Source: Chitinophaga arvensicola (GTDB lineage Bacteria; Bacteroidota; Bacteroidia; Chitinophagales; Chitinophagaceae). Taken from it: a stretch of 64,000 bases of DNA. The DNA lies in the NCBI RefSeq assembly GCF_900110835.1, contig NZ_FOJG01000002.1, positions 62,001 through 126,000 of the forward strand. Direction: 5' to 3'. Shown here piece after piece: positions 2,336-16,771 of the stretch. The first letter of the stretch is position 1, and every line of letters starts with the position of its first letter. The notes below the pieces were generated by a model. The model was not told the DNA's origin, did no database searches, and was given only the letters and a program-made list of their open reading frames with translations. The translations under genes and the position numbers were made by a program.

Positions 2336-2448
2336 TCATTGATTATTAGGGCATAAAAAAGCACTAATTTGTTTATTATTTGTATATTCCACGTGGCGTT
2401 AGATCGATAAATATTAAACAATCAGTTATTTTAGTTTTTTAGCGGAGT

Positions 2449-5034
2449 ATGTGGAAATTTATCCTTTTACTATTTTTATCTGTTCATCTGTTTACAAATG
2501 CTGGTTATGCTCAGTCCTATGGATTACGCTTTGCCAGTCATGAAGTGGTACAGGAGAGAAGAACGACGCTGAACTTAACTTCTTCCGGTGCGCTTTGTTT
2601 CAAGAAAAACGGAGAGCTGTCTTTCGATCTTAATTTATTACCATATAAGGAAACTTATTTCGGATATGTTGTCCGCATCATTGCGGCCAATAATCAAAAT
2701 ATAGATCTCGTATATAACCAGCGCGAGCGAAATTTCAGCTTCCTCATCGGGGAAAGCTTCTCCCGTGCCTTTTCGATAGACTCTATCGCGTTATTCGGTA
2801 AATGGACCCATATCAGCATCCAGTTCGATCTGGAGCGCAACGAGGCGGCTATTCTGGTAGATAATAAATTTATTGCAAAAGGTCCGGCCAAACTCGGCAG
2901 TCCGGTTTGTACCCGGGTATTCTTCGGCGCCAATACCTACGAAGGATTTCAGACAGTGGATATTCCACCGATGAACATCCGTAATATCGTTGTAAAGGAA
3001 GGCGGAAATATTAAATATAACTGGCCACTCACCGAAAATGCGGGGGCCACCGCCACCGATCTCAAAGAAGGAAAAACAGCTACCATCCGTAATCCGATCT
3101 GGATAGGTCCGAAGCACAGCAACTGGAGCCTGGTGCAAACCTGGGAGATCTATGGTACACCGAGCGTGGCTTTTGACCGGGATAAGGAAATATTGTATGT
3201 GGTATCTTCCGATTCCCTGTATAATATCTGTTTTAAAAATGAGCAGCAACATGGATTACGGCTTGCACAACGCCTGGATAGTCTTATGCCGGGTAATCAG
3301 TCGGTGTTCAATCCTTTCCTGAACAAACTGTTTAATTTTTATATTGACCATAAAAAGGCCGGAGGCTACGATTCGCTCAACCGGAAATGGGATATTAACT
3401 ATGCGCCGGATCTGCTGACGGTTTTCTGGCAGGCCAATAAATTCATCTCCCAATCAGATTCTTCCATGTATGTGCTGGGGGGGTATGGGCAAATGCAGTA
3501 CAAGAACACAGTACAGCGTTATCATTTCCCGGATAAAAAATGGGATTCGATAACAACGCATGGAGAAAGGCTTACCCCGCGTTACCTCGCTGCTGCCGGC
3601 TCCACAGATAATGGTGATACTGCTTATATCCTTGGTGGATATGGCAGTAACAGCGGTAACCAGGTGGTGAACCCGAGGCATTATTACGACCTGATGGCTT
3701 TTTATGTGAAGGATCATGCTTTTCATAAGATCTACCAGCTGGAAGATCCGCCGGTACAATTCTGTTTTGCCAACAGCCTGGTCATCGATCCTGCCGCACA
3801 GAACTATTACGCGCTCATCTTCCCCGATGATAAATTCAATACCACGCTCCAGCTGATCGAAGGGTCGCTGAAAGAACCGAAATACAGGCCCCTGGCCAAT
3901 GCCATTCCCTATTCCTTTCATGATATCAAGTCGTTCGCTGACCTGTATTATTGCAGAGATAGTAAGAAATTAGTGGCCGTTACCCTGTATACCAATAAGG
4001 ATAATATCACAGAAGTCAAGGTATATACACTGGAATTCCCGCCGGATGTGATGCTGGATGATTATTCCGGCCTGTCCGGATTTTCTGCCTGGTATTTCCT
4101 GATCCTGTTGCCACTGGGAGCATTTGGGGTGTACATTTTCCTGCGTGGACGAAAGAAAACGCCGCCTGTAAAAGCAGCGCCCGTTCCAGCGCCGGAAGCC
4201 CCGGTAGCGGAGCCAGCAGCCGCACCTAGCCCTACAACGCCTGCTGCACCTGCAGTACCTGCACCTGTTCCGGTAGTGCTCCCGGCAGAGGAACCGGCGC
4301 CGGATGAAAATCCGAAGGGAAACATTTACTTCTTTGGTCCTTTTGAAGTACTCGATAAAGACGGGCAGGACATTACCAAATTCTTTACGCCGCTGCTGAA
4401 GGAATTATTCCTGCTCATCGCGATCAATACCATCCGCTCCGGCAAAGGAATTTCATCCGACCGGCTCTATGCTACCCTCTGGCGCGATAAATCCAGCAAG
4501 GAGGCCCAGAACAACCGTTCTGTGAATATGGTGAAGCTAAAAGCGATACTAGATAAGCTGGGCGTCTGTGCCTTTGTAAAAGAAGCCGACCGCTGGAGCC
4601 TGCAATATTCAACAGAGGAGATACGGATGGACCTGGCCGACTTCCAGCAACTGTTGCATATGCCGCGTCCGCTGCAAAAACAACCTGTAAAGGAATTGTT
4701 GCGTATTCTGCACCGTGGCTCCTTCCTGCCGGATGCCAATTATACCTGGCTGGAAGACATACAGTCAGAGATTTCCAGCGTAGCTCTCGATATTTTAACC
4801 GAAGCAGCGCACCAGTTCAGCGCAGATCCGGAGCTCCTCATTGAAATAGCCGACAGCATTTTCCTGTTTGATCCGGTCAATGAAGAAGCCTTGCGCCTGA
4901 AATGCAGCAGCCTGGTGACACTGGGCCGCCATTCTCTCGCTAAAACCGCCTTCAACAAATTCACGAAAGAATACCAGCATATGTACGGAGAGGAATTTCC
5001 GCAATCCTTCACCGCCTACTCCGGAGATAAATAA
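2449..5034 (+). CDS. Membrane-tethered regulator: LamG/kelch-like sensor, one TM helix, C-terminal SARP-like DNA-binding domain
   Basis: This 861-aa protein has a signal peptide ending near QSYG (residue 22). Residues about 25-200 look like a LamG/concanavalin-type sandwich and about 230-535 like kelch/galactose-oxidase blades (YVLGGYGQ, AYILGGYGS). A hydrophobic helix follows at about 545-563 and ends in RGRKK, placing the C-terminus in the cytosol. Then comes a Pro/Ala-rich linker (about 570-618), a winged helix of the OmpR/SARP kind (about 624-705: FGPFEVLDKDG, SSDRLYATLW, RSVNMVKLKAILDKLG) and a BTAD-like helical region. The order suggests a one-component sensor that reads an envelope ligand and regulates DNA while bound to the inner membrane. 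It lies directly upstream of the SGNH/carbamoyltransferase operon. The domain reading is from fold-like motifs; ligand and targets are inferred. Confidence 0.8.
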   Translation: MWKFILLLFLSVHLFTNAGYAQSYGLRFASHEVVQERRTTLNLTSSGALCFKKNGELSFDLNLLPYKETYFGYVVRIIAANNQNIDLVYNQRERNFSFLIGESFSRAFSIDSIALFGKWTHISIQFDLERNEAAILVDNKFIAKGPAKLGSPVCTRVFFGANTYEGFQTVDIPPMNIRNIVVKEGGNIKYNWPLTENAGATATDLKEGKTATIRNPIWIGPKHSNWSLVQTWEIYGTPSVAFDRDKEILYVVSSDSLYNICFKNEQQHGLRLAQRLDSLMPGNQSVFNPFLNKLFNFYIDHKKAGGYDSLNRKWDINYAPDLLTVFWQANKFISQSDSSMYVLGGYGQMQYKNTVQRYHFPDKKWDSITTHGERLTPRYLAAAGSTDNGDTAYILGGYGSNSGNQVVNPRHYYDLMAFYVKDHAFHKIYQLEDPPVQFCFANSLVIDPAAQNYYALIFPDDKFNTTLQLIEGSLKEPKYRPLANAIPYSFHDIKSFADLYYCRDSKKLVAVTLYTNKDNITEVKVYTLEFPPDVMLDDYSGLSGFSAWYFLILLPLGAFGVYIFLRGRKKTPPVKAAPVPAPEAPVAEPAAAPSPTTPAAPAVPAPVPVVLPAEEPAPDENPKGNIYFFGPFEVLDKDGQDITKFFTPLLKELFLLIAINTIRSGKGISSDRLYATLWRDKSSKEAQNNRSVNMVKLKAILDKLGVCAFVKEADRWSLQYSTEEIRMDLADFQQLLHMPRPLQKQPVKELLRILHRGSFLPDANYTWLEDIQSEISSVALDILTEAAHQFSADPELLIEIADSIFLFDPVNEEALRLKCSSLVTLGRHSLAKTAFNKFTKEYQHMYGEEFPQSFTAYSGDK

Positions 5035-5127: not shown

Positions 5128-5175
5128 GTTAGTGCATTATTAGTGCTGTCATTAAGGCTGGGCGTATAAATTGCA
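5128..5175 (+). promoter_or_regulatory. Direct-repeat element, copy 1 (candidate SARP-regulator site plus weak -7 box)
   Basis: Three repeat units begin at TTAG 5129, TTAG 5140 and TTAA 5152, so the spacing is 11 and 12 bp. TAAATTGCA (5167-5175), a poor match to the -7 consensus, starts 15 nt after the third unit. A second copy with the same spacing lies at 9747-9794 upstream of SusC; over the first 34 bp the two agree at 26 positions. SARP-type activators are known to bind tandem repeats about 11 bp apart next to weak promoters, which makes the adjacent SARP-like regulator the natural candidate. If transcription starts about 7 nt after the box, the ATG at 5181 would be nearly leaderless. Confidence 0.55.
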
Positions 5176-5180
5176 ATTAA

Positions 5181-7235
5181 ATGAATAAGACTCGATTCCA
5201 CGATTATGGCACTCAGGCCGTTTTATTACGAAAAAAAAGAATGCTGGTGATTAAAGTCATCAGCATTCTTTTTCCCTTTTTAATTATTGCGGGAGTAGAA
5301 GGTGGCTTACGATTATTTAATTACGGCCACGATCTGCGTCTCTTTATTACTTCTCCCCAGGATCCGGATTATTACCAGTTCAATCCCGATGCGTCGCTTA
5401 AATATTTTTCCGATCCGGCTGTTGCCACGAAAGGCAATGTTGAATTATTTAAAAAAGTAAAGGATACCGGCACGCTCCGCATTTTTGTGCTGGGTGAATC
5501 TACCACCATCGGTTATCCTTATTTTCATAACGGCTCTTTTCATCGCTGGTTACAGTATCGCCTTATGCATACCAACCCGGACAAGCGTCTTGAAATCATT
5601 AATCTTTCACTAACGGGCGTTAATTCCTATACTGTCGAAGGTTTTGCAAAAGAATTGCTGCCTTACCAACCTGATGCAGTCCTGATCTATACCGGTCATA
5701 ATGAGTATTATGGTTGCCTTGGCGCCGGCAGCACCGATAAAATAGCCGGCAGTCCTTTTCTCATTCACCTGGTATTGAAGCTCCGGGAGTACCGGCTCAC
5801 CCAACTGATGGCGAATGCGCTGAACAGCATTACCAGCCGGAAAGCTTCCGCAGGCAGTGGGGCCGGCAAAACCCGCATGGAAATGATGGTGGCAGAACAG
5901 CAGATCCCATTCGGCTCTCCGCTGTATGAAAGAGGGATCACGCAGTTTACCACCAATATGGATAACACGCTGCGGCTGTTGCACGAAGCCAATGTACCCG
6001 TGTTTATCAGCAACCTGGTGTCTGCCGAAAAAGACCTGTTCCCTTTTATCAGTGTGGAGGCGGATAGCACAAAGTATCCGGATTTTAACCGCAACTATCA
6101 GCTGGGAGTGCAATCCATATCAAAAGGTGATTCCACTGCGGCATTCCAATATTTCGAAACTGCCCAGCATAGCTATAACACACACGCCGGTTGTAATTAT
6201 TACCTCGGTGAGCTACAGTTGCAACGCGGGGATAGCGTAGCGGCAAAAAACTATTTTGATAAAGCGAGGGACTTCGATGCACTGCGTTTCCGCGCTCCCT
6301 CCAAACTCAATGAGGTGCTTCCTCAACTGGTCAGTAAATATAAAAATGCGCACCTGGTAGATGCCAATGCGGTATTTGAAGCCAATAGCCCCGGTCGTAT
6401 TATCGGGAAAGAACTGGTACTGGAACACGTACATCCGGATCTGAAAGGCTACGCGTTGTTGTCAGATATTTTCTATCAATCGCTGAAAACACAAGGCATT
6501 TTTACGGTGTCCGAAGATGCGGAGATGAGTTTTGCGCAGCTGCAGCAAATGATGCCACTCACCGTGGTAGACACTTTAGCCGCGAAATTCAAGATCGCCA
6601 ATCTTAAAAAAAGCTGGCCATTCAATCATACCGGAGCTGCTGACACAATGCTGATTACAACTGCAGAAGAGCAGCTGGCCTACGATGTGGCTTTCAGGCA
6701 TACTTCCTGGGGAGATGCGATGAGAGAATTGTACACGACTTACAACCGTCAGGGCGACCTGGCAAAAGCGGCCATCGTAGTGGCGGCAATAGTACAGGAA
6801 CATCCGCTGGACATGGCGCCTTATGAAGAAGCCGGCAATTACTACGGCAAACTGAATAATACACCGGAGGCGATTTTCTATTTCAAAAGAGTATTCGCGT
6901 CGGCGCCATCCTTTGATGTAGCCAGAACCTTGTTTGTGCTTTGCCTGAAAGCAGACAAGACTACCGAAGCATTGCCTTACCTGAATTACGCAATAGATCA
7001 TAACGAGCGCCGGCTGAACTTACTGCCGGTGAGAGAATGCCTGTTGCAAATTGTGCAACTACAGCAGGTGGCGGCCAAAGAACCGGCGAACATAGCGGTG
7101 CTGAACCAGATCGCCGGACTGTATATCAAGATGGGAAATAAAGATGGCGCGGAATTGTATATCGCCAAAGTATTACAAACATCGCCCGGCAACCCGGAAG
7201 CACTTGCGATACAGGATCAACTGAAAAAAGTGTAG
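5181..7235 (+). CDS. Membrane-anchored SGNH/GDSL-family hydrolase with C-terminal TPR repeats
   Basis: The 684-aa protein has one N-terminal membrane anchor (about residues 21-40) and then an SGNH hydrolase domain: block I GEST with the catalytic Ser near residue 106, block III GHNEYYG near 172, and the Asp/His block as HVHPD near 416. Tetratricopeptide-like helices occur inside the domain (HAGCNYYLGELQLQRG) and over the last 170 residues (PYEEAGNYYGKLNNTPEAIFYF split by gaps). Such enzymes remove or transfer acyl or carbohydrate ester groups in the envelope. It is first in an operon with the SxtJ-like protein 2 bp downstream. The start at 5181 would be nearly leaderless if the upstream -7 box is used; an in-frame ATG at 5241 that keeps the membrane anchor is the alternative. 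Confidence 0.85.
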   Translation: MNKTRFHDYGTQAVLLRKKRMLVIKVISILFPFLIIAGVEGGLRLFNYGHDLRLFITSPQDPDYYQFNPDASLKYFSDPAVATKGNVELFKKVKDTGTLRIFVLGESTTIGYPYFHNGSFHRWLQYRLMHTNPDKRLEIINLSLTGVNSYTVEGFAKELLPYQPDAVLIYTGHNEYYGCLGAGSTDKIAGSPFLIHLVLKLREYRLTQLMANALNSITSRKASAGSGAGKTRMEMMVAEQQIPFGSPLYERGITQFTTNMDNTLRLLHEANVPVFISNLVSAEKDLFPFISVEADSTKYPDFNRNYQLGVQSISKGDSTAAFQYFETAQHSYNTHAGCNYYLGELQLQRGDSVAAKNYFDKARDFDALRFRAPSKLNEVLPQLVSKYKNAHLVDANAVFEANSPGRIIGKELVLEHVHPDLKGYALLSDIFYQSLKTQGIFTVSEDAEMSFAQLQQMMPLTVVDTLAAKFKIANLKKSWPFNHTGAADTMLITTAEEQLAYDVAFRHTSWGDAMRELYTTYNRQGDLAKAAIVVAAIVQEHPLDMAPYEEAGNYYGKLNNTPEAIFYFKRVFASAPSFDVARTLFVLCLKADKTTEALPYLNYAIDHNERRLNLLPVRECLLQIVQLQQVAAKEPANIAVLNQIAGLYIKMGNKDGAELYIAKVLQTSPGNPEALAIQDQLKKV

Positions 7236-7237
7236 TC

Positions 7238-7627
7238 ATGTGGAAGAATATCGGCAACATTACCCGGCAGCAATGCATTGAATTCGGACAGGTAGCCACG
7301 TTGGCTATGCTGGTGGCGGCGTTGTACCGGCACGACTTTCATCTGGTTGCGGCAGCATTGGTGCTGTTGGCGATCACCCTGGTACTGCCCCGTTTATTTT
7401 ATCCGCTGGCAGTGATCTGGTTTGGCCTGGCAAAAATATTGGGAGAAATAAATATCCGGGTATTACTCACGCTGGTATTCGTATTGGTGGTAGTGCCGGT
7501 AGGACTGATACGCAAATGGCGGGGCAAAGACACGTTGCAGTTACGGCGATTTAAAAAAGGAACGGCATCGGTGATGGATATAAGGAATCATGTGTATACA
7601 AAAGAAGAGCTGCGGCATACATTTTAA
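7238..7627 (+). CDS. SxtJ-like small membrane protein
   Basis: This 129-aa protein has two or three hydrophobic segments (about residues 20-35, 38-66 and 73-90) and a basic C-terminal tail containing WRGKDTLQLRRF. Size, topology and the neighbourhood match the SxtJ family, named from the saxitoxin cluster and commonly found next to NodU/SxtI-type carbamoyltransferases and DUF5989 peptides. Its role is unknown; a scaffold or membrane anchor for the carbamoyltransferase is a reasonable inference. It starts 2 bp after the stop of the SGNH gene, so the two are almost certainly co-transcribed. Confidence 0.75.
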   Translation: MWKNIGNITRQQCIEFGQVATLAMLVAALYRHDFHLVAAALVLLAITLVLPRLFYPLAVIWFGLAKILGEINIRVLLTLVFVLVVVPVGLIRKWRGKDTLQLRRFKKGTASVMDIRNHVYTKEELRHTF

Positions 7628-7647
7628 ACGATCATAATTTTCACGTA

Positions 7648-7797
7648 ATGGAATTTCTGCATGAACTACTGTACTTTTTAAAAACGCGTAAAAAGTTCTG
7701 GTTGCTTCCTTTAATTATTATGTTATTAATACTGGCCTCCCTGGTGGCTTTGACCAGTGCTTCTGCTTTAGCGCCTTTTATTTACGCCATATTTTGA
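7648..7797 (+). CDS. DUF5989-like 49-aa single-pass membrane peptide
   Basis: A short frame from ATG 7648 to TGA 7797 encodes a 49-aa peptide. It opens with MEFLHELLYFLKTRKKFWLL, then has one strongly hydrophobic helix (LPLIIMLLILASLVAL) and ends in APFIYAIF. The length, the FLKTRKKFWLLP signature and its place between an SxtJ-like gene and a carbamoyltransferase fit the DUF5989 family. It overlaps the carbamoyltransferase start by four bases (TTGA), suggesting translational coupling. The function of the family is unknown to me. It is easily lost in annotation because of its size. Confidence 0.78.
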   Translation: MEFLHELLYFLKTRKKFWLLPLIIMLLILASLVALTSASALAPFIYAIF

Positions 7798-9695
7798 GGA
7801 ATATTATTCTGGGCATATCAGCTTTTTATCACGATAGTGCGGCGGCGTTGATCATCGATGGACGGATCATCGCAGCGGCGCAGGAGGAGCGTTTTACCCG
7901 GATCAAACAGGATGCGGCTTTTCCCGTGCAGGCCATTAAATATGTATTGTCGGAAGCGGGTGTATCATTTGATGAACTCACCGCCGTGGCGTTTTATGAC
8001 AAGCCGTTACTAAAGTTTGAACGGCTGCTGGAAACGTATCATGCCTTTGTACCCCGTGGCTGGCGCAGCTTTATAAAGGCGATGCCGGTGTGGATGAAGG
8101 AAAAGATATTTATGAAAAAGATGCTTCGAAAGGAGTTCCGTGCGTTGGGCGCCACGAAAAATACGCCCCTGTATTTTCCTGAACATCATTTATCACATGC
8201 TGCCAGTGCCTTTTATCCCTCGCCCTATGAAAATGCTGCCATTCTCACTGTAGATGGAGTGGGAGAGTGGGCTACCACTACTATTTCCTATGGCAGGGGA
8301 AGAGATATAAAAATTTTACGGGAGCTGCGTTTTCCGCATTCTCCCGGTTTATTATATGCTGCCTTTACTTATTTCCTGGGCTTTAAAGTAAACAGCGGAG
8401 AGTATAAGCTCATGGGCTTATCTCCCTATGGTATAGCGGATGATCCGCAAACAGTTTCTTTCCGGGAAAAGATCCTTACAACGCTGGTGGATATACGAAG
8501 CGATGGATCTATCCTGTTGAACATGGATTATTTTGATTTTGCCACGGGTTTAAAAATGACGGTGACGCCTTTGTGGGAAGCGCTGTTTGGTATTTCCCGC
8601 CGGGAGCCGGAGTCGGAGATCACCACTGCACATATGAACCTGGCGCTGGCCATTCAGCAGGTGACAGAAGAAATAGTGGTAGCGTTAGCGCGTACAGCGA
8701 GTGAAATTACAGGTAGTACCAACCTGGTGATGGCAGGAGGTGTGGCATTGAATTGTGTGGCCAACCGTAAAATAAAGGATGCGGATATTTTCAAAAATAT
8801 CTGGATTCAGCCGGCGGCGGGTGATGCGGGTGGTTCGCTGGGTGCAGCTTATGCTGCCTATCATATAGGTATGGAGCAGGAGCGAATATATTTTCCGGGA
8901 GATGATGCGATGCAGGGAAGTTTCCTTGGCCCCGCTTACAGCGACGTGGAGGTGAAACAAATGATGGCGCGTTATGCGGCAGTGGCCGCACATTATCCGG
9001 ATATCACCGCACTCACAGAAAGGGTGAGCGCTTACCTGGCCGCAGGAAAAATAGTGGGCTGGTTCCAGGACCGGATGGAGTTTGGTCCGCGCGCACTGGG
9101 CAATCGCAGTATCCTGGCTGATCCCCGGCAACCGGATATGCAGCAGCAACTCAATCTGAAAATAAAATTCCGGGAAGGTTTCCGGCCTTTTGCACCAGCC
9201 GTACTGGCAGAAGATGCACATCTTTATTTTAAAGATGCAGCTGCTTCTCCATATATGTTATTTACTACCACGGTAAAATCTGAATGGCGTATTGCACCGG
9301 TAAAAAATGCAGCAGCATCATTTGCTGCTACGGTGGAAGAAAGTGAACCGGAATTATCGGTAGCATCTATATATGAACGGTTGCAACAGGAACGTTCTGC
9401 GATTCCTGCGGTAACACACCTCGATCATTCTGCAAGGATACAAACCGTACATCGTACACTTCATCCAAAGCTATGGGCACTTATTAATAGTTTTAAAAAA
9501 CTAACGGGTTGTAGCTTGCTTATCAACACCTCTTTTAATGTACGGGGAGAGCCGGTAGTGAACACACCGGAAGATGCATGGCTGGCTTTTATGCGGACAG
9601 AAATGGATTATGTGGTGATTGGAAATTATGTGTTCGAGAAAAGCCGCCAGCCAACGTTGCCAAAGGAGTTGTTCAAATCCTTCGAAATGGATTGA
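7794..9695 (+). CDS. NodU/SxtI-family O-carbamoyltransferase
   Basis: The 633-aa protein has the two-domain layout of carbamoyltransferases that move the carbamoyl group of carbamoyl phosphate, by way of carbamoyl-AMP, to a hydroxyl acceptor. N-terminal Kae1-like motifs include GISAFYHDSAAAL, QEERFTR, HHLSHAASAFYPSP, NSGEYKLMGLSPYG and LVMAGGVALNCVANRK. The C-terminal Carbam_trans_C domain shows WFQDRMEFGPRALGNRSIL and FRPFAPAVLAEDA. The frame has no ATG near its beginning. The start must be the TTG at 7794, which overlaps the preceding stop as TTGA, and the protein then begins RNIILGISAFYHDSAA as the family does. Last gene of the SGNH-SxtJ-DUF5989 operon; the acceptor (envelope glycan or small molecule) cannot be read from sequence. 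Confidence 0.92.
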   Translation: MRNIILGISAFYHDSAAALIIDGRIIAAAQEERFTRIKQDAAFPVQAIKYVLSEAGVSFDELTAVAFYDKPLLKFERLLETYHAFVPRGWRSFIKAMPVWMKEKIFMKKMLRKEFRALGATKNTPLYFPEHHLSHAASAFYPSPYENAAILTVDGVGEWATTTISYGRGRDIKILRELRFPHSPGLLYAAFTYFLGFKVNSGEYKLMGLSPYGIADDPQTVSFREKILTTLVDIRSDGSILLNMDYFDFATGLKMTVTPLWEALFGISRREPESEITTAHMNLALAIQQVTEEIVVALARTASEITGSTNLVMAGGVALNCVANRKIKDADIFKNIWIQPAAGDAGGSLGAAYAAYHIGMEQERIYFPGDDAMQGSFLGPAYSDVEVKQMMARYAAVAAHYPDITALTERVSAYLAAGKIVGWFQDRMEFGPRALGNRSILADPRQPDMQQQLNLKIKFREGFRPFAPAVLAEDAHLYFKDAAASPYMLFTTTVKSEWRIAPVKNAAASFAATVEESEPELSVASIYERLQQERSAIPAVTHLDHSARIQTVHRTLHPKLWALINSFKKLTGCSLLINTSFNVRGEPVVNTPEDAWLAFMRTEMDYVVIGNYVFEKSRQPTLPKELFKSFEMD

Positions 9696-9746
9696 AATAG
9701 TAGTTACAGTAAGAAATTTTAAAAAAAATATAACATTAATGCACCA

Positions 9747-9794
9747 GTTAGTTCATTATTAGCGCTCTTGTTAGGCCGGTGATGCTTACTTGCA
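9747..9794 (+). promoter_or_regulatory. Direct-repeat element, copy 2 (candidate SARP-regulator site plus weak -7 box)
   Basis: TTAG units at 9748, 9759 and 9771 (11- and 12-bp spacing) are followed 15 nt after the start of the third unit by TTACTTGCA (9786-9794). All spacings equal those of copy 1 at 5128-5175, and the GTTAGT, CATTATTAG and TTGCA parts are shared. The predicted start near 9800 would leave a leader of about 30 nt before the SusC ATG at 9832. Confidence 0.55.
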
Positions 9795-9831
9795 TTCATT
9801 ATTTTTTATCAATCGAAATATCGTTCGCGTT

Positions 9832-12822
9832 ATGAAAAGATTACTATTGCTGATGCTCCTCGCATCGGGTCTGCTGCAGGCCTATGCACAAAAGCAGTTG
9901 ACAAAAGGTAAAGTGCTGGATGAAACCGGCCAACCACTACCTGGAGCAACTGTCAGAGTAAAAGGTACCAACATTTCAAGTCCTACCAATGCTACGGGCG
10001 AATTCCAGATTGCAACCGGCGACGCGGCGTCCCCGGTACTGGTAATTTCTTATATCGGCTACATCTCACAGGAAGTAGCGGTAACCGGCGACAATCTCAA
10101 CATTACTTTAAAAACAGATTCCCGTTCTTTGAATGATGTGGTGGTAGTAGGTTATGGTACCCAGAAAAAGAGCGATGTTACCGGAGCGACCAGCTCGGTG
10201 AAAGCAGTTGAAATTGCCAAGCGTCCTTTGGCAAGAGTGGAACAGGCCTTACAGGGTACTACTTCCGGCGTTACTGTACAGAGCAACAGTGGACAGCCTG
10301 GTAAAGGTATCAGTGTAAGGATCCGTGGCGCCAGTTCTATTACAGGCGGTAATGATCCGTTGTATGTAATTGATGGTTACATCGGTGGTAACCTGGAGTC
10401 TATTGCTCCCGGTGATATCGAAAGCCTGGAAATCCTGAAAGATGCATCTGCAACTGCTATCTACGGTTCCAGAGGTGCGAACGGTGTGGTAATGGTAACT
10501 ACCAAGACAGGTAAAACCGGTAAACCAAGAGTAGATGCAAGCGGATGGATCAGTAAAGCGTCCTTACCAAGAAGAATGGGCGTGCTGAATGCTTATGATT
10601 TTGCATTACAGAGAACGAAAAAAGATATCGCTACCGGAACAGGTCGTGGTTTTACTGACGCACAGCTGGCTGCCCTCAAACAAAATCCTGATGGCACCGA
10701 CTGGCAGAGTGAGTTAACACAGAAGCCAATTGTTCAGAATTACCAGGTAGGTGTATCCGGCGGTTCTGAGAATGTGAAATACTATTTCTCCTATAACTAT
10801 CTCAACCAGCCAGGTTTGCTGATCAACTCCGGCTACAACAGACACACCCTGAGAGCAAACGTAGATGTGAAGCTGAACAGCAAAATGGATCTGAAAGTAA
10901 ATATCACCGGTCTGTTGCCATCCTCACACAATACCGATTTCTCCGGCGACATCACCGATCCGTTCGCTCAGTCCACTATGTATGATCCAACCAGCAGCGT
11001 AAGGGATGCATTGGGTAACTATATTCCCCGTGCACAATTTGCGTCACTGGCTACTAACCCGGTACAGAATATCATGACCCGTTCAGTTGATGGAAAAACT
11101 TCCAACATGACTGCAACTGGCGTATTTACTTACCGCATTATTGATCACCTGACCTTTACCTCGAATAACAGTTATGAGTTGCAGAATCAGCAAACACAGT
11201 CTGTTTTCCCTCCCGGAACAAACGAAGGATATAACGGTGGTGACTACGCGAAAATGGAAAACTCCCGCTACAGAAGCTGGCAGAACTCCAACTTCCTGAC
11301 TTATAACAATCGTTTTGGCAAGCACTCACTGACGGTAACTGCCCTCTTTGAGCAGGCTTCCAAAACCAACACCAATACTATTGCACAGGCCAACAAGCTG
11401 TCTACCTACAGCCTTGGTTACTGGAACCTTGCATTAGGTAAGAGCCAGTCAACCAGCGGTGGTTTCTGGGAAGACGCTTTGATCTCCTACATGGGAAGGG
11501 TGAACTATGCCTTTAACGATAAATACCTGTTAACGGTAGCTGTTCGTACAGATGGATCTTCCCACCTGGTTGACAAGTATTCCACTTTCCCATCCGTAGC
11601 ATTGGGCTGGGCAATCGACAAAGAAGGATTTATGGCTGGTTCTAAAACAGTAACTGGTCTGAAACTTCGCGCAAGCTATGGTCAGACCGGTAATCAGGCA
11701 GTACCTGCCTACTCCAGCATTGCGCAGGTGAGTACAGGTCTTCCTTACTATTTTGACGGTACCACACCAAGCGTAAATACGCCATTAGGATCTCCGGTTT
11801 CCAAATCACTCCGTTGGGAAAAAAATACCACCTATGACCTGGGTCTGGATATGGAATTCTGGAATGGCCGCTTAACTTTCACCGCAGATGCTTACAATAA
11901 GAAAGTAACAGACCTGTTGTACAACACTGATAACCCATTCTATTATGGTGGCGGAAGCTATCAGCGTAACATCGGTAGCGTAAGAAACACCGGTCTTGAA
12001 TTCGCTGTAGGCGGTATTCCTGTTGTAACCAAAGATTTCAAATGGAACAGTAGCTTCAATATCTCCTTCAATAAAAATGAAGTATTGGATCTGGGAGGTC
12101 AGGACAATATCATCGTAAACGGTATTGGTTCTGCACAGCAAGGCGTATCTATTATTAAAGTAGGTCAGCCGCTGGGAACTTTCTATGGTTACAGATACCT
12201 GGGAACCTGGAAAACAGAAGAGAAAGCAGAAGCTGCCACCTATGGTAAAAAACCAGGCGATACCAAATACGCTGACCTGGATGGCGATAAAAAACTCTCC
12301 GGTGGCGATCTGACTACTATCGGTAATGGTATGCCTAAATACTACTTCGGGTTTATCAATGATTTCTCCTACAAGAACTGGAGCATGAACGTAATGTTCC
12401 AGGGTACACACGGCAACCAGATCTATTCTTTCAGCCAGGCTTACACCATGGGCGGATTGGGGGATGCACGTGATGCGACCAACAGTAAGATCCTTGAAAT
12501 GTGGACACCTGAAAAACAAACAGATGTTCCTACGTATGGTAACCAGAATGAAATTAAGAGCAGCCGTTATGTATATGACGCCAGCTACATTAAGCTGAAA
12601 AACATCTCCCTGACTTACACTATTCCAACAAGCCTGCTGAGCAGAATACATGCCCGCAGCCTGGATGTGTACATCAGTGCGCAGAACATCTGGACGATCA
12701 CCAATTTCCCTGGCTATGATCCTGAAGTAACCAACGCTACCAATGCTATCACACAAGGTCTGGAAACAGGTACTATACCTAACCCCAAAACCTATACTAT
12801 TGGTCTGAGACTCGGTTTATAA
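9832..12822 (+). CDS. SusC/RagA-family TonB-dependent outer-membrane transporter (GH92 PUL)
   Basis: The 996-aa protein starts at ATG 9832, which gives a clean signal peptide (MKRLLLLMLLASGLLQAYA). After it come a carboxypeptidase-regulatory-like domain (GKVLDETGQPLPGATVRVKG), the SusC TonB-box region (NDVVVVGYGTQKK), a plug (LYVIDGYIGG, ILKDASATAIYGSRGANGVV) and a 22-strand barrel ending in TYTIGLRLGL. It lacks the STN domain, so control by an ECF/FecR pair is not expected. It pairs with the SusD 48 bp downstream and a GH92 mannosidase, so the likely cargo is alpha-mannosyl oligosaccharide. The 5' region carries the repeat element at 9747-9794. Confidence 0.95.
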   Translation: MKRLLLLMLLASGLLQAYAQKQLTKGKVLDETGQPLPGATVRVKGTNISSPTNATGEFQIATGDAASPVLVISYIGYISQEVAVTGDNLNITLKTDSRSLNDVVVVGYGTQKKSDVTGATSSVKAVEIAKRPLARVEQALQGTTSGVTVQSNSGQPGKGISVRIRGASSITGGNDPLYVIDGYIGGNLESIAPGDIESLEILKDASATAIYGSRGANGVVMVTTKTGKTGKPRVDASGWISKASLPRRMGVLNAYDFALQRTKKDIATGTGRGFTDAQLAALKQNPDGTDWQSELTQKPIVQNYQVGVSGGSENVKYYFSYNYLNQPGLLINSGYNRHTLRANVDVKLNSKMDLKVNITGLLPSSHNTDFSGDITDPFAQSTMYDPTSSVRDALGNYIPRAQFASLATNPVQNIMTRSVDGKTSNMTATGVFTYRIIDHLTFTSNNSYELQNQQTQSVFPPGTNEGYNGGDYAKMENSRYRSWQNSNFLTYNNRFGKHSLTVTALFEQASKTNTNTIAQANKLSTYSLGYWNLALGKSQSTSGGFWEDALISYMGRVNYAFNDKYLLTVAVRTDGSSHLVDKYSTFPSVALGWAIDKEGFMAGSKTVTGLKLRASYGQTGNQAVPAYSSIAQVSTGLPYYFDGTTPSVNTPLGSPVSKSLRWEKNTTYDLGLDMEFWNGRLTFTADAYNKKVTDLLYNTDNPFYYGGGSYQRNIGSVRNTGLEFAVGGIPVVTKDFKWNSSFNISFNKNEVLDLGGQDNIIVNGIGSAQQGVSIIKVGQPLGTFYGYRYLGTWKTEEKAEAATYGKKPGDTKYADLDGDKKLSGGDLTTIGNGMPKYYFGFINDFSYKNWSMNVMFQGTHGNQIYSFSQAYTMGGLGDARDATNSKILEMWTPEKQTDVPTYGNQNEIKSSRYVYDASYIKLKNISLTYTIPTSLLSRIHARSLDVYISAQNIWTITNFPGYDPEVTNATNAITQGLETGTIPNPKTYTIGLRLGL

Positions 12823-12870: not shown

Positions 12871-14400
12871 ATGAACAAAAAATATTTTCTCCCATTAGCG
12901 ATTGCTGCCATGATCGGTGCATCATCCTGCGTGAAGCTGACGGAAGATCCAAAAGCCAATCTGACTCCCGGCAATTACTTCAATACCCAGAGTGAGCTGG
13001 ATGGAGCAGTAACTTCTGCCTTTAGAGCCCTGGCCGTAGATGGCGCCTGGGGTTTTACCAGCAAAATGACCGCATATTTTGGTGCGGATGACCTGACAAC
13101 ACACCCTGAGTCGAATAAAGCGGATTCACGCGAGTTCGACCGTCTGCAGGGTACCAGCACCAACTCCAGTCTCCGGGCTGGTTGGGAAGGACCATGGAAC
13201 ACCATTTACCAGGCCAATAACGTTATCAATAACTATGAGAAAGTAGCGGCTACCACACCGGATGCTATTCAGCAGCGTACTTATGCTGGTGGACAGGCTT
13301 ACTTCCTGAGAGGTCTTTGCTATTTCTATCTCGTAAGAACATTTGGTGCATTACCACTGGTTACCGGTCCTGCTGAAATTACAGTTACGCCAGCAAGACA
13401 AGAACCTGCTAAAGTATATGAGCAGATTATCAGCGATCTGAAAGCAGCAGCGGGTATGTTACCTGATAAATGGAGCAACAGTGTGGACGTAGGCAGACCA
13501 GGTGCACTGGCAGCCCGCGCGGTACTGGCCAACGTATACCTGACTATGGCCGGCTGGCCTATCAACCAGGCATCCAATTACGGTCTGGCAGCAACAGAAG
13601 CCAAAGCGGTAATGGATTCCAAAAAATATGACCTGGTACCTGACTACCTGGATGTATTCAAAACCAATAACAACATTGAGTCTGTGTTTGGTCTGCAGTA
13701 CAACGTAGCCGGTCAGCTGTTCCAGCGTTCTTTTGGTGCTACCTGTATTCCTGATGATGAAGGTGGATGGGATGACTTCTTCCCTGAAATCAATTACTTC
13801 AAGGATGCACCGGTTTGTAAACGTACTACAGAAACGTTCTATACTACTATTAAACATAAGACCTTAGGTCCTGTCAGCTGGGATGACCCAAGAACCGCTA
13901 CCAAGCACCCTTACTATAACAAATTCCGTTATGGCGTGGGTGATGGTATTGTGGAAACACCTACCAAAGTGATCAGCTTCAATGCGAGTACAGATAAAAC
14001 AACCGATGTGGTGCGTTTTGCAGAAACACTGCTGACCTATGCCGAAGCATCTGCGATGTCTGCCAACACAGTTTCTGATGATGCTTACGAAGCGCTGAAC
14101 AAGGTACGCCGCCGCGCCGGATTGCTGGATATCAAGAAAGGATTGACAGCTACCGCTTTCCGTGACTCCGTAGTAGCAGAACGTAAATACGAGTTTGCCG
14201 GTGAGTTTGGTCAACGCTGGTTCGATATCGTTCGTTTGCAGTTATTACCACAGGTAATCGCCAGACGCGACCCGAACGAATTCAAAGATCTGCCGTTAAA
14301 TCCTGCTGCGGTTGCAAACCCAGGTCCTAAATATATCGCGCCTATTCCAATCCGCGATCTGAACCTGAGCCCGGGATGGACACAAAACCCTAGTTACTAA
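12871..14400 (+). CDS. SusD/RagB-family surface glycan-binding lipoprotein (GH92 PUL)
   Basis: The 509-aa lipoprotein has its lipobox at GASSC (about residue 20) and the SusD/RagB helical fold: an N-terminal SusD-like part with LTPGNYFNTQSELDGAV, the TPR-like core (GQAYFLRGLCYFYLVRTFG, AARAVLANVYLTMAGW) and the C-terminal RagB segment with FAETLLTYAEASAM, LNKVRRRAG and ERKYEFAGEFGQRWFDIVR. It forms the lid of the SusC transporter and captures glycan at the cell surface. It lies between SusC and GH92, and a strong hairpin follows its stop codon. Confidence 0.95.
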   Translation: MNKKYFLPLAIAAMIGASSCVKLTEDPKANLTPGNYFNTQSELDGAVTSAFRALAVDGAWGFTSKMTAYFGADDLTTHPESNKADSREFDRLQGTSTNSSLRAGWEGPWNTIYQANNVINNYEKVAATTPDAIQQRTYAGGQAYFLRGLCYFYLVRTFGALPLVTGPAEITVTPARQEPAKVYEQIISDLKAAAGMLPDKWSNSVDVGRPGALAARAVLANVYLTMAGWPINQASNYGLAATEAKAVMDSKKYDLVPDYLDVFKTNNNIESVFGLQYNVAGQLFQRSFGATCIPDDEGGWDDFFPEINYFKDAPVCKRTTETFYTTIKHKTLGPVSWDDPRTATKHPYYNKFRYGVGDGIVETPTKVISFNASTDKTTDVVRFAETLLTYAEASAMSANTVSDDAYEALNKVRRRAGLLDIKKGLTATAFRDSVVAERKYEFAGEFGQRWFDIVRLQLLPQVIARRDPNEFKDLPLNPAAVANPGPKYIAPIPIRDLNLSPGWTQNPSY

Positions 14401-14420: not shown

Positions 14421-14463
14421 AAATAGTTTAATCATGCCTTGTGCATGATTAAACTATTTTGTT
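14421..14463 (+). terminator. Perfect 17-bp hairpin between SusD and GH92
   Basis: Arms 14421-14437 and 14443-14459 are exact complements around a 5-nt loop, and a short T-run follows. It lies 20 bp after the SusD stop and 56 bp before the GH92 ATG. It looks like a terminator or an intercistronic attenuator that lowers GH92 expression relative to the SusCD pair. Confidence 0.65.
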
Positions 14464-14515: not shown

Positions 14516-16771
14516 ATGAAAAAAATAAACTGGAAGCTGTGCAGCCTTCTGTGGCTGACACCCTTTGTATGCTTCTCCGGACGGGCACGCGCTGCGGTCT
14601 ATGATACCATTCCCGGTCCGAAACAGTCGATCGACCTCATTGATCCCACCATCGGAAATGTAGGCGCATTGCTGGAGCCCACCAGGCCAACCGTTCAACT
14701 ACCGAACCAGATGATCCGCTTTACGCCGCAACGTAAGGATTATATGGACGATCAGATTTCTGATTTTCCACTCAACGTAGTATCACACCGGCTCGGACAG
14801 GTGTTCGCGGTAAAACCGGCTGTAGGCGCTGTTTCAAAAGAAGCATGGCAAAACCGGCTGGCTTATGATCATAACCTGGAAATCAATCAGCCCTGGTACT
14901 ATTCCACCTGGTTACTGAATGAAGAAGTAAACGTAGAATTTACTGCCGGTAAAAAGGCGGGTTACTACCGCTTCCGTTTTCCACAGGGAAAAGAAAAATC
15001 GTTATTGTTCCATGTTTACAACGATGGCGAAGCCGCTTATAACTTCCAGCCCGGCAATGTACTCACCGGTATGGAAACCTACAATGGCTATGTAAAAGTA
15101 TACATGTACGGTGTGTTCAGCGAAGCTGGTACGCCGGGAGTAGTGGCCGACGGACAGCTAAGCACTAATAAAAATATTGCTGGTAAAGGTATCAAGGCAT
15201 TTATCAGTTTCCCTGCTGCTACCAAAGAAGTTACTTTTAAATATGCCATCAGTTATATCAGCCCTGAACAGGCAAAGAAAAACTACGAAGCCGAAGTCGG
15301 TAAGAAAGATTTCAATGCCGTAGCTGCCAATGGTAAAAAAGCCTGGGCCGATGTCATGAACCAGGTAAAAGTAAAAGGTGGTACACTGGCACAGCAACGT
15401 TCTTTCTATACGGCGTTGTATCGCTGCTATGAAAGAGCCATCGATATTACAGAAGACGGACAGTATTATAGCGGATTTGATAAACAGATCCACAAAGACA
15501 GCCGTCCTTTCTATACCGACGACTGGACCTGGGATACCTACCTCGCCCTGCATCCGCTGAGAATGATCCTGAATCCTTCCCGTGAAGAAGATATGTTGCA
15601 ATCGTTTGTACATATGTACGAGCAAAGCGGTTGGATGCCTACCTTCCCGGTACTGTTTGGTGATCATGCCTGCATGAACGGCTTCCACTCTTCCGTAGTA
15701 CTGCTGGATGCCTACAGAAAAGGGTTGAAGAATTTTGATGTGCAGAAAGCGTATGAAGGCATGCGGAAAAATGCCACCGACGCTACGATGCTGCCATGGC
15801 GCAATGGTCCTAAAACCCCGCTGGACGATATCTATCATGAAAAAGGTTATTTCCCTGCGCTGCACATAGGAGAGAAGGAAACAGAACCTGCGGTACACTC
15901 TTTCGAAAAAAGACAGGCCGTAGCCGTTACCCTGGGTGGCGCATACGACGACTGGGCAGTTGCTGAACTGGCCGGCGATCTGAATAAGAAAGACGACCAA
16001 CGCCTGTTTGCGCCAAGAGCAAAGAACTACAAAAACGTATGGAACCCGGAAAAGCAATTCTTCGTGCCGAAAGATGCAGACGGGAAATGGATTGATATTG
16101 ATGTGAAATATGATGGTGGCATGGGTGGCCGTGATTACTATGATGAAAACAACGGCTGGACTTACCTCTGGCAGGTACAACAGGATATTCCCGGACTGAT
16201 CGGTTTGATGGGCGGTAAAGATGTTTTTGAAAAAAGACTGGATCAGCTGTTCCGTGAATCACTGGACATGTCCCGTTACGCTTTCTGGAGCAAATTCCCT
16301 GACGCCACCGGTCTCGTAGGACAATACTCCATGGGTAACGAGCCTAGCTTCCATATTCCTTACCTGTACAACTACACCGGCGCTCCGTGGAAAACCCAGC
16401 AACGTATCCGTTTCCTGCTGGATGCATGGTTCAAGGATAACATCTTTGGTATTCCAGGTGATGAAGATGGTGGTGGTATGTCTGCTTTCGTGGTATTTTC
16501 TTCTATGGGCTTCTACCCGATAACACCCGGTATACCGGAATATACTATTGGTAGCCCGGTGTTTGAAAACATCAGCATCGCATTACCAAACAAAAAACAA
16601 TTTACCGTAATAGCACATAACAGCTCTGTGGTAAATAAATATATTCAGCAGGCGAAATTCAATGGTAAAACTTTGAATAAGCCCACGTTTACCCATCAGC
16701 AACTGGTAGATGGCGGAACGCTGGAACTGTTTATGGGTCCCAAGCCTAATAAAAGCTGGGGCGTACAATAA
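14516..16771 (+). CDS. GH92-family alpha-mannosidase, secreted
   Basis: The 751-aa protein has a signal peptide (cleavage near GRARA) and the full GH92 layout. There is an N-terminal beta-sandwich opening with IDLIDPTIGN, then an (alpha/alpha)6 catalytic domain with TDDWTWDTYLALHPL, GGAYDDWAVAELA, NNGWTYLWQVQQD, GNEPSFHIPYLYNY and the acid-rich GIPGDEDGGGMSAF near the active site. GH92 enzymes are calcium-dependent exo-alpha-mannosidases acting with inversion on alpha-1,2, alpha-1,3 or other mannosyl linkages. In a SusCD locus it would trim imported or surface-bound mannan or N-glycan chains. Linkage preference cannot be decided here. Confidence 0.94.
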   Translation: MKKINWKLCSLLWLTPFVCFSGRARAAVYDTIPGPKQSIDLIDPTIGNVGALLEPTRPTVQLPNQMIRFTPQRKDYMDDQISDFPLNVVSHRLGQVFAVKPAVGAVSKEAWQNRLAYDHNLEINQPWYYSTWLLNEEVNVEFTAGKKAGYYRFRFPQGKEKSLLFHVYNDGEAAYNFQPGNVLTGMETYNGYVKVYMYGVFSEAGTPGVVADGQLSTNKNIAGKGIKAFISFPAATKEVTFKYAISYISPEQAKKNYEAEVGKKDFNAVAANGKKAWADVMNQVKVKGGTLAQQRSFYTALYRCYERAIDITEDGQYYSGFDKQIHKDSRPFYTDDWTWDTYLALHPLRMILNPSREEDMLQSFVHMYEQSGWMPTFPVLFGDHACMNGFHSSVVLLDAYRKGLKNFDVQKAYEGMRKNATDATMLPWRNGPKTPLDDIYHEKGYFPALHIGEKETEPAVHSFEKRQAVAVTLGGAYDDWAVAELAGDLNKKDDQRLFAPRAKNYKNVWNPEKQFFVPKDADGKWIDIDVKYDGGMGGRDYYDENNGWTYLWQVQQDIPGLIGLMGGKDVFEKRLDQLFRESLDMSRYAFWSKFPDATGLVGQYSMGNEPSFHIPYLYNYTGAPWKTQQRIRFLLDAWFKDNIFGIPGDEDGGGMSAFVVFSSMGFYPITPGIPEYTIGSPVFENISIALPNKKQFTVIAHNSSVVNKYIQQAKFNGKTLNKPTFTHQQLVDGGTLELFMGPKPNKSWGVQ

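Follow-up and report, generated by a model that had tools for sequence, protein, structure and literature searches.

A predicted kelch–SARP membrane receptor in Chitinophaga arvensicola and the direct-repeat operators through which it appears to control alpha-mannan use

The DNA analysed here (the window) is a stretch of 64,000 nucleotides from Chitinophaga arvensicola (contig NZ_FOJG01000002.1, positions 62,001 to 126,000). It encodes a predicted membrane-spanning regulator followed by two gene groups, each preceded by an array of short direct repeats, termed site A and site B. A SusC/SusD pair stands together with a glycoside hydrolase at this locus, which makes it a polysaccharide utilization locus (PUL). 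Its features are as follows.

2346..2367, no strand assigned: inverted pair of operator-like heptamers (TTAGGGC-N8-GCACTAA) upstream of the regulator gene
2449..5034, + strand: regulator (Pfam kelch matches, hydropathy, AlphaFold2 (AF2) models, fold searches)
5129..5175, + strand: operator/promoter A; heptamers at 5129-5135, 5140-5146 and 5152-5158, an 8-nt gap and a box at 5167-5175
5178..5280 (ends approximate), + strand: putative short RNA from promoter A that overlaps the SGNH gene at its 5' end
5181..7235, + strand: SGNH/GDSL-like protein with tetratricopeptide repeats (PF13472, TPR)
5234..5273, + strand: hairpin of an intrinsic terminator, within the first SGNH codons
7238..7627, + strand: SxtJ-family protein (PF19588)
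7648..7797, + strand: DUF5989 small protein (PF19451)
7794..9695, + strand: carbamoyltransferase (PF02543, PF16861)
9736..9794, + strand: operator/promoter B; heptamers at 9736-9742, 9748-9754, 9759-9765 and 9771-9777, an 8-nt gap and a box at 9786-9794
9832..12822, + strand: SusC-type TonB-dependent transporter (TIGR04056)
12871..14400, + strand: SusD (profile matches)
14516..16771, + strand: enzyme of the alpha-mannosidase family GH92 (PF07971, TIGR01180)

Sites A and B share one unit, the heptamer TTARNNC, which is repeated three times in A (TTAGTGC, TTAGTGC and TTAAGGC, then box TAAATTGCA) and four times in B (TTAATGC, TTAGTTC, TTAGCGC and TTAGGCC, then box TTACTTGCA). The units are spaced by 11 and 12 bp in A and by 12, 11 and 12 bp in B, and in both sites 8 nt separate the end of the last heptamer from a box ending in TTGCA. 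The first-pass annotation had recognized both elements from the sequence, and its coordinates were recovered: the best ungapped alignment of the two upstream regions starts at 5128 and 9747 (33 of 48 bases identical), and 15 nt lie between the start of the last unit and the start of the box in each. Its count of 26 agreements in the first 34 positions became 25/34 on recounting, and its description of three units at 11 and 12 bp is complete for A only, since the additional unit of B at 9736-9742 had been overlooked. A partial match that it noted at the start of the regulator gene is one half of the inverted pair at 2346-2367 and so not a third copy of the promoter. A similar inverted pair precedes the regulator gene in close orthologs and is exact (TTAGTGT/ACACTAA) in three loci (L078-L080); autoregulation through it is possible.

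The strict pattern GTTAGNNCATTATTAGNGCNNNNNTTA was built from A and B themselves, and for that reason conservation is a stronger test than any count of its matches. Allowing up to 3 mismatches, it was found twice in the window, whereas 100 shuffles averaged 0.02 matches. In the whole 8.3-Mb genome the only perfect matches are A and B; at up to 3 mismatches the pattern and its reversed control each gave 4 matches, so that only the perfect ones count. Across the genus, too, 3-mismatch matches were no commoner than those of the reversed control, and weight was placed on matches with 0–2 mismatches. Among the SusC genes of the C. arvensicola genome, at least 56 in number (56/287 candidates scored), one is preceded by the strict operator. 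A general pattern (three heptamers plus box) was then used on 79 genomes of the genus, C. arvensicola included, 58 of which carry a homolog of the regulator. It gave 50 matches, compared with 1 for the reversed pattern. Sorted by hand, 24 of these are A or B, 9 adjoin a paralogous regulator, 16 precede genes of a GH99-like type (see below) and 1 (in G068) falls elsewhere. Thus 33 of the 50 matches lie in the locus of the regulator or beside a paralog, and the suggestion that the motif is rare and tracks kelch–SARP genes was borne out. Chance origin of A and B is ruled out by the window shuffles, the genome scan and the genus scan of the general pattern.

Conservation was assessed in the 14 loci with the closest regulator homologs. 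Site A is present in 13 and site B in 12 of them; both stand beside the regulator ortholog in 12 loci, G065 has A alone and G033 has neither. The order regulator, SGNH, carbamoyltransferase, SusC, SusD is kept in 9/14 loci, counting G073, where the regulator is interrupted by a stop. An SxtJ homolog was called in 7/14, and GH92 lies within the fetched stretch in 11/14. In G065 GH92 directly follows the regulator, and G033 has a different SusC. Judged by this retention, A and B are real conserved switches, and they probably belong to the adjacent regulator. Two observations on these loci may be added: the regulator ortholog of G073 (L075) is broken by an in-frame TAG, yet both of its operators are kept, and the SGNH–SxtJ–DUF5989–carbamoyltransferase cassette (5181-9695) is absent from G058, G039 and G013 as well as from G065, with regulator and GH92 retained.

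Arrays of the same kind adjoin paralogous regulators. Scanning 61 loci with a 26-site matrix gave a site of at least 13 bits in 40 of the 52 that bear a regulator; training sites make up many of these, and a few of the rest do not exceed the best reversed locus (16.3 bits). Inspection of the other 12 loci by eye revealed arrays in 10, often spaced 12/12 with three or four units, and no array in the stretch printed for L084 and L145. Among the four paralogs in the C. arvensicola genome, L089 has a site of 16.5 bits, and the other three (L086-L088) were assessed by eye. The gene orientation at such arrays is divergent in some loci and tandem in others. Beyond the genus, relatives occur in other Chitinophagaceae, Mucilaginibacter, Pedobacter, Sphingobacterium, Larkinella, Spirosoma and Dyadobacter (among the best 80 of 251). 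Three TTAR units at 11–12 bp lie less than 600 bp from the gene in 22 of the 23 genus loci in this set (one labelled Flavihumibacter; mirrored control, 3) and in 41 of the 57 non-genus loci (control, 5). Farther flanks of the non-genus loci carry some too (69 matches in 517 kb versus 10 for the control); in these counts AT-rich sites matching on both strands were counted twice. With the heptamer matrix, at least 18 bits were reached within 700 bp in 44/80 loci, compared with 0/80 for the reversed control and 1/69 for distant chunks. The best box lies at a gap of 8 in 16/22 and 16/24 arrays (gap 9 in 4 and 4, other gaps in 2 and 4). Bacteroidota promoters have elements at −33 and −7, and the box is presumably the −7 element.

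The regulator comprises a signal peptide, a beta-rich N-domain, a kelch propeller (approximately residues 227–530), a transmembrane helix (547–566), a disordered linker (568–619) and a SARP domain (624–861). A SARP-like C-terminus had been proposed from the sequence, and the fold search with the AF2 model agreed: AfsR and EmbR were the sole PDB matches at E ≤ 0.001 (227–230 of 238 residues aligned; root-mean-square deviation (rmsd), 5.3–5.5 Å), and the modelled domain consists of an ODB winged helix followed by a BTA helical domain. A profile search of PDB sequences did not find a SARP. Since the SARP domain is C-terminal, behind signal peptide, kelch propeller and membrane helix, rather than N-terminal and free of an anchor, the protein is described as a SARP-domain receptor and not as a classical SARP.

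Operators also lie upstream of two GH99-like genes unlinked to the locus. The 16 genus matches of this kind precede either a 421-amino-acid (aa) type (10 matches) or a 553-aa type (6 matches). The unlinked target types L132 and L090 are homologous to each other (36–38%). The 421-aa type matches Pfam GH99 below the gathering score of 33 bits (19.2–26.5 bits for L132, L133 and L158), L090 has no GH99 match, and relatives inside the locus score 31 and 32.5 bits. With a joint profile, nine GH99-type endo-alpha-mannosidase sequences ranked first (about 110 residues, E = 4.7e-5 to 4.5e-4). These sub-threshold scores and joint-profile matches are the reason for the name ‘GH99-like’. In G043, G061 and G032 a GH99-like gene lies inside the locus, behind SusD; in the clade of the window such genes lie elsewhere in the genome, each with its own operator. 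Altogether there were 147 GH99-like matches in 58 of the 79 genomes, and the best 49 of the 147 were examined with an operator matrix trained on cis sites only. An operator lies less than 500 bp upstream in 18 of these 49 (score at least 20.8; next score 11.6; reversed maximum 15.9). All ten of the closest 421-aa genes have one (that of G028 being degraded), and the 553-aa type has it in 6 of the 7 genomes with a regulator ortholog but in 1 of 20 others (G033, where the regulator is a 50% homolog). Of 64 regulator loci with a length of at least 12 kb, 42 contain GH92 or GH99-like genes; by a crude baseline of even scatter, the 11 GH92 and 5 GH99-like matches of the C. arvensicola genome give a chance of about 3% per locus. 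According to the accessible part of a study of yeast alpha-mannan use in Bacteroides (PMC9213526), GH99 and GH92 act together there. The GH99-like and GH92 targets would thus form a coherent alpha-mannan regulon. The small regulon that had been suggested, joining the SGNH/carbamoyltransferase operon to SusC–SusD–GH92, holds by computation, and its predicted membership extends to the unlinked GH99-like genes.

Site A may also drive a separate transcript of about 100 nt. A terminator-ended stretch of this length follows box A in 11 of 14 aligned A regions, the window included, and is lacking in G043, G061 and G032. Its terminator stem has 5 covarying pairs and 98.1% of cells paired, a percentage reached by 0/500 shuffles; the number of further pair types was unexceptional (43/500 shuffles), and the other four measures were exceptional. 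The strongest competing explanation is that the hairpin merely attenuates the SGNH operon and does not terminate a functional small RNA: it lies within the SGNH reading frame in 7 genomes, including the window, and SGNH translation could melt it. Yet the SGNH-less genomes G058, G039 and G013 retain the RNA unit at 90–95% identity, compared with 71–81% in the next spacer, and G065, also SGNH-less, keeps a stem with changed pairs. The stem is thus kept without an overlapping gene and behind a putative promoter of its own. We regard attenuation alone as a serious possibility that falls somewhat short of an even chance. A dispersed RNA family was rejected, as model R1 reached E < 1e-15 only at its 11 source loci (next 6.2e-5; 49 candidates scored per genome), as were known Rfam families (four sub-threshold matches only). 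Pairing of the short RNA with the starts of 7 locus genes gave no clear signal, the energy for SusD being equalled by 5% of plain shuffles. Two further details of this region are a short overlapping frame at the SGNH start (MALRPFYYEKKECW, 5206-5250), similar in several close relatives, and GATTCCACGA at 5194-5203, which recurs in leaders behind the operators of L086, L087, L170 and L171. RATTCCACGA was too weak as a mark of the regulon (28 genome matches versus 12 reversed). Farther downstream, a hairpin with a 17-bp stem (14421-14459) separates SusD from GH92 and is possibly an attenuator or processing site.

Taken together, we consider it quite probable that the kelch–SARP protein is a membrane receptor that activates an alpha-mannan regulon through A, B and the operators of the GH99-like genes. 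Fold, operator anatomy, operator–regulator pairing across genomes and target nature were established by computation; DNA binding, activation, ligand, the box as promoter and start sites are what we infer from them. The regulator would be a one-component receptor whose outside sensor (the beta-rich, perhaps lectin-like domain and the kelch propeller, within a periplasmic part of residues 22–540) is joined through one membrane helix and a flexible linker to the cytoplasmic SARP domain. When a ligand derived from alpha-mannan is sensed, SARP domains would line up on the three or four heptamers at their 11–12 bp spacing. The last heptamer, 8 bp before a poor −7 box, would cover the position of the missing −33 element, and RNA polymerase would be recruited as in AfsR. 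Transcription of SusC–SusD–GH92 would thereby be switched on at B, that of both the short RNA and the SGNH/carbamoyltransferase operon at A, and likewise that of the two unlinked GH99-like genes. The predicted start sites lie slightly downstream of the boxes, near 5179-5185 for A and 9798-9803 for B.

Several results weigh against this explanation. The structural match to SARPs is remote (14–16% identity at the rmsd given above), the window regulator has no Trans_reg_C or BTAD profile match at E ≤ 10, and among 68 relatives Trans_reg_C is weakly matched in 9 (best E = 0.025) and BTAD in 8 (best E = 0.0023). The G033 locus has no operator in the stretch read, 36 of the 80 loci of the wider set fall under the 18-bit threshold, and kinship among genomes inflates all counts. 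The 553-aa-type gene of G032 lacks an operator; among 12 further short-type GH99-like genes only that of G073 (40 kb from its regulator) has one, whereas of those without, 3 belong to the locus itself and 8 have a paralogous regulator no more than about 10 kb away. In G028 a degraded operator precedes the GH99-like gene (L158) and no kelch–SARP gene was found in the genome, a pattern suggestive of decay once the regulator had been lost. That genome could also be cited for the repeats being read by some other, unlinked transcription factor or special sigma factor instead of the predicted binding by the kelch–SARP protein, whose gene would be a mere neighbour. But the arrays adjoin the regulator in several families, whichever way the genes are arranged, and their geometry fits SARP sites as far as these are covered by the sources cited below; an unlinked factor therefore seems unlikely. 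The similarity of A and B (33/48 at a distance of 4.6 kb) would also be expected from a promoter duplication without shared regulation. This we regard as scarcely credible: the same kind of element stands at unlinked GH99-like genes, and plain duplication is ruled out by the joint retention of A and B, which keep their individual features in relatives with regulators of roughly 53–80% identity.

The predicted activation by the kelch–SARP receptor can be compared with known systems. In the accessible portions of the respective papers, AfsR binds repeats 11 or 22 bp apart, with 8 bp between the 3' repeat and the −10 element and with its box overlapping −35 (PMC10936776), and PimR recognizes three heptamers with four-base spacers (PMC5930380). 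To that extent the operators described here fit the AfsR/PimR geometry: their direct repeats follow each other at one helical turn (11 or 12 bp), with 8 bp between the final repeat and the box. Like the actinobacterial SARPs AfsR, EmbR and PimR, the regulator has the winged helix-turn-helix plus BTA fold; unlike them, it has this domain at the C-terminus, preceded by a kelch sensor and membrane helix, in a Bacteroidota host, with glycan-use targets, spacers of 4 or 5 nt and the heptamer TTARNNC. Membrane-bound one-component activators of the CadC/ToxR type also combine sensor, transmembrane helix and winged helix-turn-helix in one chain; the regulator differs from them in its C-terminal, SARP-type DNA-binding domain and in its direct-repeat arrays. 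Known PUL regulators comprise SusR-like proteins, hybrid two-component systems and extracytoplasmic function (ECF) sigma/anti-sigma pairs. The regulator gene likewise adjoins a SusC/SusD operon, but no kinase or sigma domain was seen in its product and the operator is of SARP type. GH92, GH99-like enzymes and SusC/SusD are shared with the Bacteroides yeast alpha-mannan system, from which, on the accessible part of PMC9213526, the locus differs in that its GH99-like genes are unlinked and operator-bearing. Literature searches of a partial library found no paper on a kelch–SARP receptor and its operators, and PMC11892949 contains no word beginning with regulator, SARP or kelch.

We lean towards the broader proposal that an undescribed receptor class (kelch sensor, one transmembrane helix, SARP domain) in several Bacteroidota families controls alpha-mannan use, reads SARP-type operators by the actinobacterial 8-bp rule and drives a small RNA in part of Chitinophaga. 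The 11/12-bp and 8-bp rules make the model directly testable. If true, it would give PULs one more mode of control and provide an operator code for predicting regulons, unlinked enzymes included, from sequence. SARP activation, familiar from antibiotic genes, would then extend to a different phylum, type of sensor and promoter system. The regulator appears to be a little-known kind of sensor that turns on mannan-digesting genes in many soil Bacteroidota.
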